34,469 bases of DNA, from the NCBI GenBank assembly GCA_903863375.1, contig CAIPBT010000082.1:1-34469 (forward strand), read 5' to 3'. Origin of the DNA: an uncultured Ferrovum sp. (GTDB lineage: Bacteria > Pseudomonadota > Gammaproteobacteria > Burkholderiales > Ferrovaceae). This document shows positions 28,362 through 33,077 of this stretch, one piece after another. The notes below the pieces were generated by a model that saw nothing but the letters and a program-made list of their open reading frames with translations, ran no database searches and was not told the origin of the DNA. Position 1 is the stretch's first letter, and each line of letters begins with the position of its first letter. The translations under genes and the position numbers were made by a program.

Positions 28362-28994
28362 TCAGGTCAGCAGCATGTTCTCGAGCGCATAGCGAGTGAG
28401 CTCGACATTGTTCTTCAGTGCCATCTTCTCGAGGATGCGCGCCCGATAGACATTGAACGTCTTGATGCTGATGGCAAGATCTTCAGCGATTTCGCCCGGG
28501 GCCTTGCCTGCGGCAATCAGCAGCATGGTCTGGTATTCGCGGTCGGACAGCAGTTCATGCGGCGGCTTGTCCTGGTCGTCATTGATGCTGTCGGCGAGCA
28601 GTTCGGCGATCTCGGGCGTGACGTACCGGCGGCCTCTGGCCACCAGTGCCAGGGCGCTGACCAGTTCCGAGGGCGCACTCTGTTTGTTGAGATAGCCCGA
28701 CGCTCCGGCCTTGATCGCCCGGACGGCATACTGGTCTTCCCGGAACATGCTGAGCATCAGCACCCGCACGCGCGGATGCTCGCGCCGGATCTGCTTCAGC
28801 ACGTCGATGCCGTTACGGTCGCCAAGCGAAATGTCCAGCAACACAATGTCGGGTTCGGCTTCGCGGATGCGCAGGATCGCCTCGTTGCCGCTGGCCGCTT
28901 CTGCCGTAACCTGCATGTCTTCCGTGCCGGAGACGATCTGCTTCAGACCTTGGCGCACGATCGCGTGATCGTCGGCAATCAGGATGCTCAGCAT
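28362..28994 (-). CDS. NarL/FixJ-family response regulator
   Basis: 210 aa; LSILIADDHAIVRQGLKQIV, VLLDISLGDRNGIDVL, KAGASGYLNKQSAP, C-terminal LSDREYQTMLLIAAGKAPGEIAEDLAISIKTFNVYRARILEKM (LuxR HTH). Confidence 0.95.
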   Translation of the reverse strand: MLSILIADDHAIVRQGLKQIVSGTEDMQVTAEAASGNEAILRIREAEPDIVLLDISLGDRNGIDVLKQIRREHPRVRVLMLSMFREDQYAVRAIKAGASGYLNKQSAPSELVSALALVARGRRYVTPEIAELLADSINDDQDKPPHELLSDREYQTMLLIAAGKAPGEIAEDLAISIKTFNVYRARILEKMALKNNVELTRYALENMLLT

Positions 28995-29072
28995 GGGAAA
29001 ACGGGCGCTCGCAGGGTAGGGTCACCGGAAACCAGGGACCCCTTCCGGAATCCCTCACCCCGCGAGTGTAAC

Positions 29073-30206
29073 TTAAACCACGCGTTCCATTTTCAGCCGC
29101 ACCAGGGTGCCCTCGCCCGGGGCGCTGTGCACTTCGAGGGCGCCGCCGAGGGCGTTCGCGCGTTCGAACATGCCACGCAGGCCGAAGGCGTCTGACCGGG
29201 TTGGATCTCCCTGGTCAAAGCCCTGGCCGTGATCCTGCACTTCCAGGGTCAGGCAGCCCTGGTCCAACCATAGACGCACCTCGGCAAGACTGTCGCCGGC
29301 ATGCTTGGAGACATTGTTCAGGGCTTCCTGGCAGATCCGGAATACCCCGATGGCGCGATGTTCGGACAGTTCGAAATCGTCTTCCGGGCCGCTGAAATCG
29401 ACCACAATGCCGGTGCGCTTGGAGTAGTCATCAACGTACCACTCCAACGCCGCGACCAGCCCCAACTCCAGCGTGGGAGGCCGCAGGTTGGTCGAGATGC
29501 GACGGGTGGAGTCAATGGTGCGGTCGACCAAGGCATTGATGGCATCCGCCTGGTCGGCGAGGGCCGCCCGGGTGTCCGCCGGCAGACGTGCGATCAGCAT
29601 CGACAGCTGCATTTTCAGGCCGGCCAGATTGCCGCCCACATCGTCGTGCAGCTCGCGCGCCAGGCGAAGTCGCTCATCTTCCCGGGCGCGCTCCTGGTGC
29701 GCTGCCAACGTGGCAATCTGGTCACGGGCGGAGGCGATCGAGGCTTCGCGGCGCTTTGCGAGCGAAATGTTCTGCACCAGACCATCCCACACCATCCGGC
29801 CATCCGTGAGGCGCCGTGGCGTGGCACGCAGGTTGATCCATTTCAGGTCTGACCAGCCGGGTACCCGGATGCGGCCCTCCCAGTTCCATTCCAGGCCGCT
29901 GGTGCGCGAAGATTCCATCGATTCCAGCAGGGCCTGTCGCTCGTCCTCCACGATCAGTTCGAGGAAGCGCTGGGGTTGACTGCATAGCGAACGGGGTGAC
30001 AGGCCCAGAACCTTGAGGGCGCCTTCGTTGGCGTAGGTGAAGTGCCCGAAGCCCTTGTCGTCGCTCACGAACTTGAACAGCATGCCCGGCGCGCCGCTGG
30101 CGACACTGGTCAAGGCTGGCGACGCGCGGCGACTGTTCAAGGCGTCCGCGCGCTCATCCCGGTTTTGCAGGGCCGCGGAAACCAGACGGGGCAGAGGAGA
30201 CGACAT
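29073..30206 (-). CDS. PAS-containing sensor histidine kinase (HisKA_3/NarX-type)
   Basis: 377 aa; PAS-like N-terminus, LRLARELHDDVGGNLAGLKMQL (H-box), ICQEALNNVSKHAG, LEVQDHGQGFD, FGLRGMFERANALGGALEVHSAPGEGTLVRL; same strand, just upstream of the RR. Confidence 0.94.
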   Translation of the reverse strand: MSSPLPRLVSAALQNRDERADALNSRRASPALTSVASGAPGMLFKFVSDDKGFGHFTYANEGALKVLGLSPRSLCSQPQRFLELIVEDERQALLESMESSRTSGLEWNWEGRIRVPGWSDLKWINLRATPRRLTDGRMVWDGLVQNISLAKRREASIASARDQIATLAAHQERAREDERLRLARELHDDVGGNLAGLKMQLSMLIARLPADTRAALADQADAINALVDRTIDSTRRISTNLRPPTLELGLVAALEWYVDDYSKRTGIVVDFSGPEDDFELSEHRAIGVFRICQEALNNVSKHAGDSLAEVRLWLDQGCLTLEVQDHGQGFDQGDPTRSDAFGLRGMFERANALGGALEVHSAPGEGTLVRLKMERVV

Positions 30207-30372: not shown

Positions 30373-30436
30373 ACCCGTAGCCTAGACCCCGTCGTTTAGA
30401 ACCCGGAGCCTAGATCCAATAGCCTAGAACCCGTAG
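30373..30436. repeat. Degenerate 14-bp tandem repeat across the DUF3443 stop codon
   Basis: acccgtagcctaga / ccccgtcgtttaga / acccggagcctaga / tccaatagcctaga / acccgtag: four units plus a partial. Confidence 0.85.
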
Positions 30437-32037
30437 TACGGTGTACCGGTCACGCTCGGACTGTAGATGCCGAAGTAGACGGTGCGCTGGAAGAAGAATG
30501 GCAGGCCCCAGGCGAAGACGCCGGGCGAGAAGTAGGCGCTGCTCACGATGGCCAAGCCGGCATAGGCTGGGCCGTTCGAGGCATTGAACAGGGTCAGGGC
30601 ATCGCTGACCGTCGGTGCGGGACTGATCGTGAAATTCAGCGTGCCGGCACCAAACTGCCAGGAGCCCATGGTGGTGGGCAGCGTCACGCTGCCGCCCGTC
30701 ACGCACGCAAAGGGATAGGCCGGACCGGGGTTGGCGGCCGTTCCGGGGCAGGTGCTCACAGCGCTGATGTTCTGGTCCGGCAGGCCGGTTGCGGTGGTGC
30801 CGCCATTGCTGAAGTACAGGGTATTGGACCCGCTGTCGATGTAACTGCCGGTGACCACCCCGCCGACCTGACTGACCGCATAATTTTTCCCATTGACGGT
30901 GGACTGGATGAACCCGTTCGTCGGATCGGCCACCAGCGTGGTTGTGGGGGCATTGATCGGGCCAAACGTCAGGGTGCCGGCTACGCCACCGACCGTGCCA
31001 TCCGGCTGGGTCACGTTGATCAGAGTCGGTGCGGTAGACATCGCCAAAGACAGGTTGCCTTTGCCAGCGGCGCTGACTGGGTTGGCCACCGTCACCCCGG
31101 TGATCGGGAAGGGGGTGCTGACGGCGTTGGTGACCGGGTTGATCACCGGACCCGCCGCCGTGCAGGTGCCGTTCTGGCAGGCATAGTACGTGGCCGGGGC
31201 GCCGTTCTGGCTGCACTTGTTGGTGCTGGTACTGCCCGAATTGCCGGCCGTGTGGCAATCGTCCGAAAACAGGCCAACCCCGATGATGCCGTTGGCGCGG
31301 ATGGTGTTGGCATTGCTGGACTGGGCCGACGCGAGGCCGCCTGAAACGCCGCAGTTGACCCCGGGGGTGGTGGCGGGCGGCGTCGCGGGCAGCGAGGGAT
31401 CGTTGAGCACTTGCAAGCTCAGATTGCTGATTTTCAGGCCGGTGCTGCCCGGATTGCCGGGCGGGGCTACCATGCCACCCACGGTGACATCGGCCGAGCG
31501 CACGCCACCCCAGAAGAAACTGCTGACAAAGGCATAGCATTCGCCAATCGGGGCGGTTCCGGCAAACGCCGTCTGGCTCGATCCGTTCTGGACGAAGTTG
31601 GCGGCGGTGACCGAGGGCATGGCGCTGAGTACCTGCGCAGGAATCGCCTCGGCCAGCAGCCGCAGTCCCTCGGAGCCGGTATCCACTTCGACATGGTCAA
31701 TCCAGCCGCAGGCCGTCGTGCTGCCCGGGGCACAGAGGTAGATCGAGACGTAGGGAATGTTGGCAGATACCGAGGGGGTGCCGTTGTCCGTGATCGGACA
31801 GAGGTCCATGTACACCGTGGCCGAACTGCCGTTGCCATTGTTGGCAATGCTGTTCTGCAGGCTGGTGGCGGGACATACCGCATGGCTGACGGCCTGGCCC
31901 GGGTTGGTTGGCGTCACGCTGCCATTGCTGGTGTTGATGCTCGTGCTGGTGGAAGTGGCGCCGCCGCCACAGCCGGCCAGTTGCAGGCAGAGGACCAGGG
32001 CAAGGCTGCATGACAGCCATTTCGGGAAGGCATTCAT
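30424..32037 (-). CDS. DUF3443-like secreted lipoprotein with pepsin-like motifs
   Basis: 537 aa; lipobox LQLAGC at N-terminus; VDTGSEGLRLLA, NGIIGVGL, GTLTFGP, YIDSGSNTLYFS; adjacent to a DUF2844-like gene. Confidence 0.82.
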   Translation of the reverse strand: MNAFPKWLSCSLALVLCLQLAGCGGGATSTSTSINTSNGSVTPTNPGQAVSHAVCPATSLQNSIANNGNGSSATVYMDLCPITDNGTPSVSANIPYVSIYLCAPGSTTACGWIDHVEVDTGSEGLRLLAEAIPAQVLSAMPSVTAANFVQNGSSQTAFAGTAPIGECYAFVSSFFWGGVRSADVTVGGMVAPPGNPGSTGLKISNLSLQVLNDPSLPATPPATTPGVNCGVSGGLASAQSSNANTIRANGIIGVGLFSDDCHTAGNSGSTSTNKCSQNGAPATYYACQNGTCTAAGPVINPVTNAVSTPFPITGVTVANPVSAAGKGNLSLAMSTAPTLINVTQPDGTVGGVAGTLTFGPINAPTTTLVADPTNGFIQSTVNGKNYAVSQVGGVVTGSYIDSGSNTLYFSNGGTTATGLPDQNISAVSTCPGTAANPGPAYPFACVTGGSVTLPTTMGSWQFGAGTLNFTISPAPTVSDALTLFNASNGPAYAGLAIVSSAYFSPGVFAWGLPFFFQRTVYFGIYSPSVTGTPYYGF

Positions 32038-32504
32038 GGCAGTGTCTCCGCCAGGATTCCGGCAGGCGTGAGCGACGGCACCCAGAAGCGGCCCGTAAGG
32101 GCGTAAGGGCGGCCGCTTAGGGCGGCTTTCAGCGAGGGTGTATCGATCACCAGGTTGCGTCGTTGGCCGGGCGGCACCCTGGCCGCACCGGTCTGGTAGG
32201 CATCCAGATAGCCGCCGAGCAGCAGTTCCAGCGCGGGAATGCGGTTGCCACTGAAGGTGACGGCAAAGACGGTACCCGACGGGCCAGCGTACTCATGCAC
32301 CACCATGGTGGCCGTTTTCAGGTCGTAACGGGTGTAAGCCACCGTGCTGGTGCTGGTTGCCATCGCCTGCATGGCCTGGCTGTCGCTGTAGACGCTGGCC
32401 TGGTCGCCGCCGAGTTGCGCTTGCGCCAGCAACGGCATGCCGATTGGAGGAAGCACTAGGGCGGCGACCAGGGCCAGACGGCGGATCGGGGAAGGGGAAT
32501 TCAT
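32034..32504 (-). CDS. DUF2844-like secreted protein
   Basis: 156 aa from ATG at 32504 (GGAG RBS); signal peptide RRLALVAALVLPPIGMPLLAQAQ; YDLKTATMVVHEYAGPSGTVFAVTFSGNRIPALELLLGGYLDAY; ATGA overlap with the DUF3443-like gene. Confidence 0.82.
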   Translation of the reverse strand: MNSPSPIRRLALVAALVLPPIGMPLLAQAQLGGDQASVYSDSQAMQAMATSTSTVAYTRYDLKTATMVVHEYAGPSGTVFAVTFSGNRIPALELLLGGYLDAYQTGAARVPPGQRRNLVIDTPSLKAALSGRPYALTGRFWVPSLTPAGILAETLP

Positions 32505-32633: not shown

Positions 32634-33077
32634 TTAGTCGAGAAACAGTGCCCGGGCAATCCGCCAGTCTTGCTGACCACTCATCACGGTATCGCAGCCT
32701 AGTGGCTCCGGTTCTCCGTCTGGGGCGAGATCCGAGCGGGACCGGTCGCCCGTTCCCACGTTCTGGTAGTAGCGATCCAGCCAGACCCGAATGTGCCGCG
32801 ACGCGTGGGTGCTGCGTACCAGGATTTTCTTGCCGTCCCGGGTTTGGCACCCAGCATCTTCTTCATGCACGAATTCGATGAACTGGCGGGGGTCGTCGTC
32901 CCTGGCGATCCGGGGTTCACTGGTGGTGACATCAATCGATGGAACCGTTTCGGCGGCGTCGGCGGGCGTGACGCTCTGGCCGAACCACAGGGCAACGCCA
33001 AGAAGCAGGCCCAGAACGATGCGAAACCCGTGGCCGGCATTGAGCCGAAGGCGCTGTGTAACGCGAAAGGTATTCAA
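32634..33077 (-). CDS. Hypothetical exported protein
   Basis: 147 aa; hydrophobic N-terminus FRIVLGLLLGVALWFGQSVTPADAAE (signal-peptide-like); same strand, upstream of the DUF2844/DUF3443 pair. Confidence 0.6.
   Translation of the reverse strand: MNTFRVTQRLRLNAGHGFRIVLGLLLGVALWFGQSVTPADAAETVPSIDVTTSEPRIARDDDPRQFIEFVHEEDAGCQTRDGKKILVRSTHASRHIRVWLDRYYQNVGTGDRSRSDLAPDGEPEPLGCDTVMSGQQDWRIARALFLD

Follow-up and report, generated by a model that had tools for sequence, protein, structure and literature searches.

DUF3443, an exported protein family with a predicted two-lobed pepsin-like fold, and its probable partner DUF2844

The members of the DUF3443 family are probably exported, lipid-anchored aspartic endopeptidases with two lobes and a pepsin fold, on which the DUF2844 proteins most likely act in trans. 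For this reading, which builds on a predicted fold together with conserved motifs, we estimate a probability of about three in four. The analysis concerns DNA of an uncultured Ferrovum sp. (Ferrovaceae; assembly GCA_903863375.1, contig CAIPBT010000082.1), of which the whole stretch of 34,469 nt is called the window here. The relevant features are the following:

30424..32037, minus strand: intact DUF3443 lipoprotein ORF, 537 aa from ATG; predicted two-lobed pepsin-like aspartic protease (Pfam, AlphaFold2, Foldseek)
31969..32037, minus strand: lipoprotein signal peptide with lipobox L20-A21-G22-C23 (from the translation; C23 would be the modified cysteine), followed by a low-complexity Gly/Ser/Thr-rich tether
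31672..31683, minus strand: D119 to S122 of the lobe 1 catalytic motif V118-D119-T120-G121-S122 (D119 in 114/114 homologues, S122 in 112/114)
31279..31293, minus strand: lobe 1 psi-loop motif N249-G250-I-I-G253, counterpart of pepsin DGILG; family form [NK]G[ILV][LI]G
30826..30837, minus strand: D401 to S404 of the lobe 2 catalytic motif I400-D401-S402-G403-S404 (D401 in 114/114, S404 in 111/114)
30484..30516, minus strand: C-terminal F508-A-W-G-L-P-F-F-F-Q-R518, probable counterpart of pepsin WILGDVFIRQY in the lobe 2 psi-loop (G511 in 112/114, P513 in 110/114)
32034..32504, minus strand: 156-aa DUF2844 protein with a signal peptide that lacks a lipobox (PF11005, E 4.7e-24)
32634..33077, minus strand: small ORF (147 aa) ahead of DUF2844 whose product looks exported; perhaps the third gene of the operon in the genus

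Residues 87-537 of the protein encoded at 30424-32037 match PF11925 (DUF3443) with an E-value of 6.3e-43 and a score of 147.5 bits, where the gathering cut-off is 25. An overlapping frame on the same strand (30410-31540) was dismissed as a shadow ORF. The original prediction had described an LAGC lipobox, which is indeed found at residues 20-23, and most relatives share this type of N-terminus, with ...C-GGGG after the signal peptide. DUF3443 would thus be held in the cell envelope by a flexible tether, more likely at the outer membrane, since the lipidated Cys23 is followed by glycine and not by aspartate. The protein of the window has a pI of 4.4 and large Ser/Thr/Asn-rich insertions; the median pI of the family is likewise 4.4 and its content of lysine plus arginine is 2.4%, both resembling pepsin. 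A classical pro-segment is not obvious in the sequence.

The same prediction had listed a series of ordered family A1 motifs, and all of them, including G354-T-L-T-F-G359, occur at the residues given. It had also named conservation of the DTG/DSG motifs among DUF3443 homologues as a point on which it could fail. Across the alignment, all 114 homologues have aspartate at the positions of both D119 and D401, and the surrounding D[TS]G[ST] is almost invariant. For G121, S122, G250, G253, G359, G403 and S404, individual conservation amounts to 110-113 of the 114 sequences. Relatives were gathered in two ways, by an HMM search of whole genomes and by a pattern scan of GTDB contigs. The scan was built on the DTGS motif and is therefore biased towards lobe 1, in contrast to the HMM set. 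As the two aspartates are also present in 38/38 sequences of the HMM-only set, their invariance is not a product of the scan. These counts leave aside a single empty row.

The C-terminal block of residues 508-518 is an additional landmark that was absent from the earlier motif list. Its family form is [FA]-D-[WFL]-G-[LM]-P-F-F-[FY]-G-R, with FDWGLPFF[FY]GR in most relatives. The hydrophobic-hydrophobic-Gly element of the psi-loop reads I-I-G253 in lobe 1; its probable counterpart in lobe 2 reads A-W-G511 in the window and D-[WF]-G in most relatives. Position 174, which by spacing alone corresponds to the flap residue Tyr75 of pepsin, is tyrosine in 87/114 and phenylalanine in 17/114 homologues, the latter also in the window, and an invariant arginine (R126) occupies the position of pepsin Trp39. 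Across 112 relatives, the median distances between landmarks are 40 residues from Asp to flap (43 in pepsin), 98 from Asp to hydrophobic-hydrophobic-Gly in lobe 1 (90), 212 between the two aspartates (183), and 81 from Asp to hydrophobic-hydrophobic-Gly in lobe 2 (87). The protein of the window, with its insertions, has an Asp-Asp spacing of 282.

Structure prediction and a structure search, which had been proposed as a check, speak for the pepsin-type reading, since the predicted fold matches A1 pepsins across both lobes. The AlphaFold2 model, built from 51 sequences, has a pTM of 0.81 and a mean pLDDT of 74, the weak regions being the tether and the loop insertions. In a Foldseek search of the PDB, all of the best 50 matches listed were A1 proteases (probability 1.0, E 3.2e-10 to 1e-8), among them BACE1, plasmepsins, rhizopuspepsin and the Major aspartyl peptidase 1 of Cryptococcus, and the alignments run over about 500 columns at 9-13% identity. 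The model had no match in a library of viral structures. TM-scores normalised by target were 0.47-0.59 and the RMSD was about 10 Å, for which reason lobe packing or loops either differ from those of A1 proteases or are locally mispredicted, and the model suggests the same topology in both cases. From this end-to-end match, D119 and D401 should lie close to each other in the folded protein. One could argue that the match is an artefact of modelling, and that DUF3443 is an unrelated beta-rich lipoprotein using its two D[ST]GS motifs for something else, as the high RMSD and the lack of a significant sequence link to A1 might indicate. We consider this highly improbable given the E-value of 3e-10, a single family across the best 50 matches listed, the invariance of both motifs and the pepsin-like spacing of the landmarks.

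At the level of sequence, the link to A1 is indeed weak. PF00026 was neither among the best 25 of 29 Pfam families listed for 51 DUF3443 members at E-values up to 10 nor among the listed Pfam matches of the family consensus, and single DUF3443 proteins gave no significant A1 match in Pfam either. Searches of PDB sequences with a single sequence, a profile and the consensus (phmmer, hmmsearch) found no A1 protease for DUF3443, and NCBIfam and PHROGs gave no significant A1 match. The Pfam family Asp_protease_2 matched weakly in 6/51 members (best E 6.5e-4). When DUF3443 was compared with ten A1 sequences by hhalign, probabilities were 4-23% and P was approximately 0.001-0.01, as opposed to 0.45-0.61 for the unrelated control DUF2844. 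One local hhalign run set D119 and pepsin D32 in the correct register at low probability, and other runs paired the lobes crosswise. A profile alignment of the two DUF3443 lobes placed D119 opposite D401, weakly. This weak link is why DUF3443 is still classed as a domain of unknown function, and also why we state that it probably works like a pepsin without filing it in A1. For the family as a whole, the most fitting description is that of a distinct exported group of two-lobed pepsin-like proteins that by sequence are not A1 members.

In the proposed mechanism, D119 of lobe 1 (DTGS) and D401 of lobe 2 (DSGS) would jointly activate a water molecule in the cleft between the lobes, and a short flap with Y/F174 and W176 would cover this cleft. 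The enzyme would be lipid-anchored in the envelope through its flexible tether, and the secreted, co-translated DUF2844 would act on it in trans as folding chaperone, pro-domain or inhibitor. Whereas gene structure, family membership, motif conservation, predicted fold and gene pairing are results, we infer catalysis, an acidic optimum, the location and the role of DUF2844. It is also conceivable that DUF3443 is a catalytically dead binding protein of pepsin fold, for instance an adhesin or a lipoprotein that binds a ligand, partnered by DUF2844. A1 does include non-peptidases such as a xylanase inhibitor and the pregnancy-associated glycoproteins (PMC2761423), and the large Ser/Thr/Asn-rich insertions and the invariant arginine in place of Trp39 would suit such a role. 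However, those relatives have lost active-site aspartates, whereas DUF3443 keeps both within D[TS]G[ST] in 114/114 sequences, which points to selection for catalysis and makes a dead protein unlikely. For the active enzyme that we favor, serine at the position of pepsin Thr218 and the small number of basic residues would fit with activity at acidic pH. This would suit the Ferrovum relative, since Ferrovum lives in acid mine waters, but most carriers of DUF3443 live near neutral pH.

The most constant companion of DUF3443 is DUF2844, whose stop codon overlaps the DUF3443 start by 4 nt (ATGA) in the window. It was found in 79 of 80 DUF3443 loci, and in the lone exception the contig stops just upstream. 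DUF2844 lies upstream in 76 loci, downstream in one and ambiguously in two where the start call is uncertain; the upstream copies mostly overlap DUF3443 or are at most 35 bases away, with a few at 0.2-1.6 kb depending on the chosen start codon. In a sample of 150 genomes from the order, DUF2844 occurs in 13, all of which also possess DUF3443; the latter is present in 15 (one of the extra two is a weak match). One plasmid copy of DUF3443, in Burkholderia vietnamiensis, lacks an annotated DUF2844 neighbour. The DUF2844 model is confident and compact (pLDDT 90, about 95 over the mature chain) and had no confident fold match in the PDB (best E 0.05). Invariant features are an A-x-L-G at the mature N-terminus and a proline near the C-terminus.

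DUF2844 is probably a partner of DUF3443, most likely a trans-acting folding chaperone, pro-domain or inhibitor. Pepsin pro-segments are basic against an acidic protease, and in the window DUF2844 has a pI of 8.3 and DUF3443 one of 4.4; as the DUF2844 family median is 6.7, this contrast is a mere hint. With regard to the partner alone, DUF2844 might instead be exported as the dedicated cargo or substrate of DUF3443 and then be processed by it. The near one-to-one co-occurrence, the translational coupling and the invariant termini would be compatible with this, but a compact domain predicted at such confidence has no evident flexible cleavage site, so that we regard a substrate role as rather doubtful. 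A more far-reaching, still tentative extension of the preferred trans-acting role is that both genes form an unrecognised exported system, in which a deep and independent prokaryotic branch of two-lobed, envelope-anchored pepsins is controlled by a separately encoded pro-domain or chaperone that replaces the covalent pro-segment usual in pepsins.

Beyond DUF2844, no gene was common to more than 16 of the 80 loci. By tblastn, relatives of the 147-aa ORF were found only in two other members of the genus, both with DUF3443 (L024/L031, which are one genome, and L027), at 54-60% identity. Downstream of DUF3443, a histidine kinase and a NarL-type response regulator (28362-30206, minus strand) are 77-94% identical within the genus (L031, L027). 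This pair, closely conserved in the same genus only, could regulate the DUF2844-DUF3443 operon.

Of 399 genomes sampled from the phylum, 11 contain DUF3443, compared to 7 of 399 with recognised pepsins. The distribution of DUF3443 is patchy even within the genus of the window organism, where two of four other genomes (G003, G004) gave no match. A 7.8-Mb genome of the same order (G727) has four copies, which suggests an expansion into paralogues. On the Paraburkholderia plasmid pBN2 (L136, 5345-7086), the DUF2844-DUF3443 pair is flanked by an integrase and a replication gene and can hence be carried by mobile DNA.

Neither Pfam (PF11925) nor the RefSeq records examined, where the name is "DUF3443 family protein", assign a function to the family. 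Our literature search retrieved no paper naming DUF3443, DUF2844 or PF11925; an earlier structural assignment beyond the searched literature is possible. Pepsin-type proteases were thought to be nearly absent from bacteria, and a survey from 2009 listed seven species, all with predicted intracellular enzymes (PMC2761423). If DUF3443 is active, a widespread domain would gain a function, exported two-lobed pepsins would exist in bacteria including Ferrovaceae and relatives of Burkholderia, and DUF2844 would gain a testable role. Moreover, the family would be new material on the question whether the pepsin gene duplication predates the eukaryotes.

Compared with MEROPS A1 (pepsin, BACE1, plasmepsin II), DUF3443 shares the two-lobed fold by Foldseek, a hydrophobic-D-[ST]-G-S in each lobe, the Asp-flap, Asp-hydrophobic-hydrophobic-Gly and Asp-Asp spacings, and the low basic content with a pI of about 4.4. 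It differs in its low identity (approximately 9-13%), in being undetected by PF00026, and in having a lipid anchor, no obvious pro-segment, a flap shorter by about three residues, arginine at the Trp39 position, another cysteine pattern and a separate partner gene; most members also have D-W-G in lobe 2 instead of hydrophobic-hydrophobic-Gly.

Like DUF3443, the bacterial A1 proteases shewasin A and D are two-lobed with both aspartates conserved (PMC2761423, PMC4814920). However, the described bacterial A1 pepsins have no signal peptide, with shewasin D residing mostly in the cytoplasm (PMC2761423, PMC4814920), while DUF3443 has a lipoprotein signal peptide and lies outside A1 by sequence. Pepsin position 218 is alanine in six of the seven bacterial enzymes (PMC2761423), as in shewasins and renin, in contrast to S404 of DUF3443 (111/114). 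Three further loci (L111, L112, L113) encode PF00026-type bacterial pepsins with apparent signal peptides, unlike those of the survey (PMC2761423).

A retropepsin of the A2 or RimB-like type, that is, a single-lobed homodimer with one DTG per chain, does not describe DUF3443, in which about 212 residues separate two D[ST]GS motifs of the same chain. RloA, which is secreted by Pseudomonas aeruginosa, and its homologue RimB are bacterial aspartic proteases too, and one of the two is encoded in an operon together with partner genes (PMC12239564); in contrast to this retropepsin type, DUF3443 combines two lobes in one chain.
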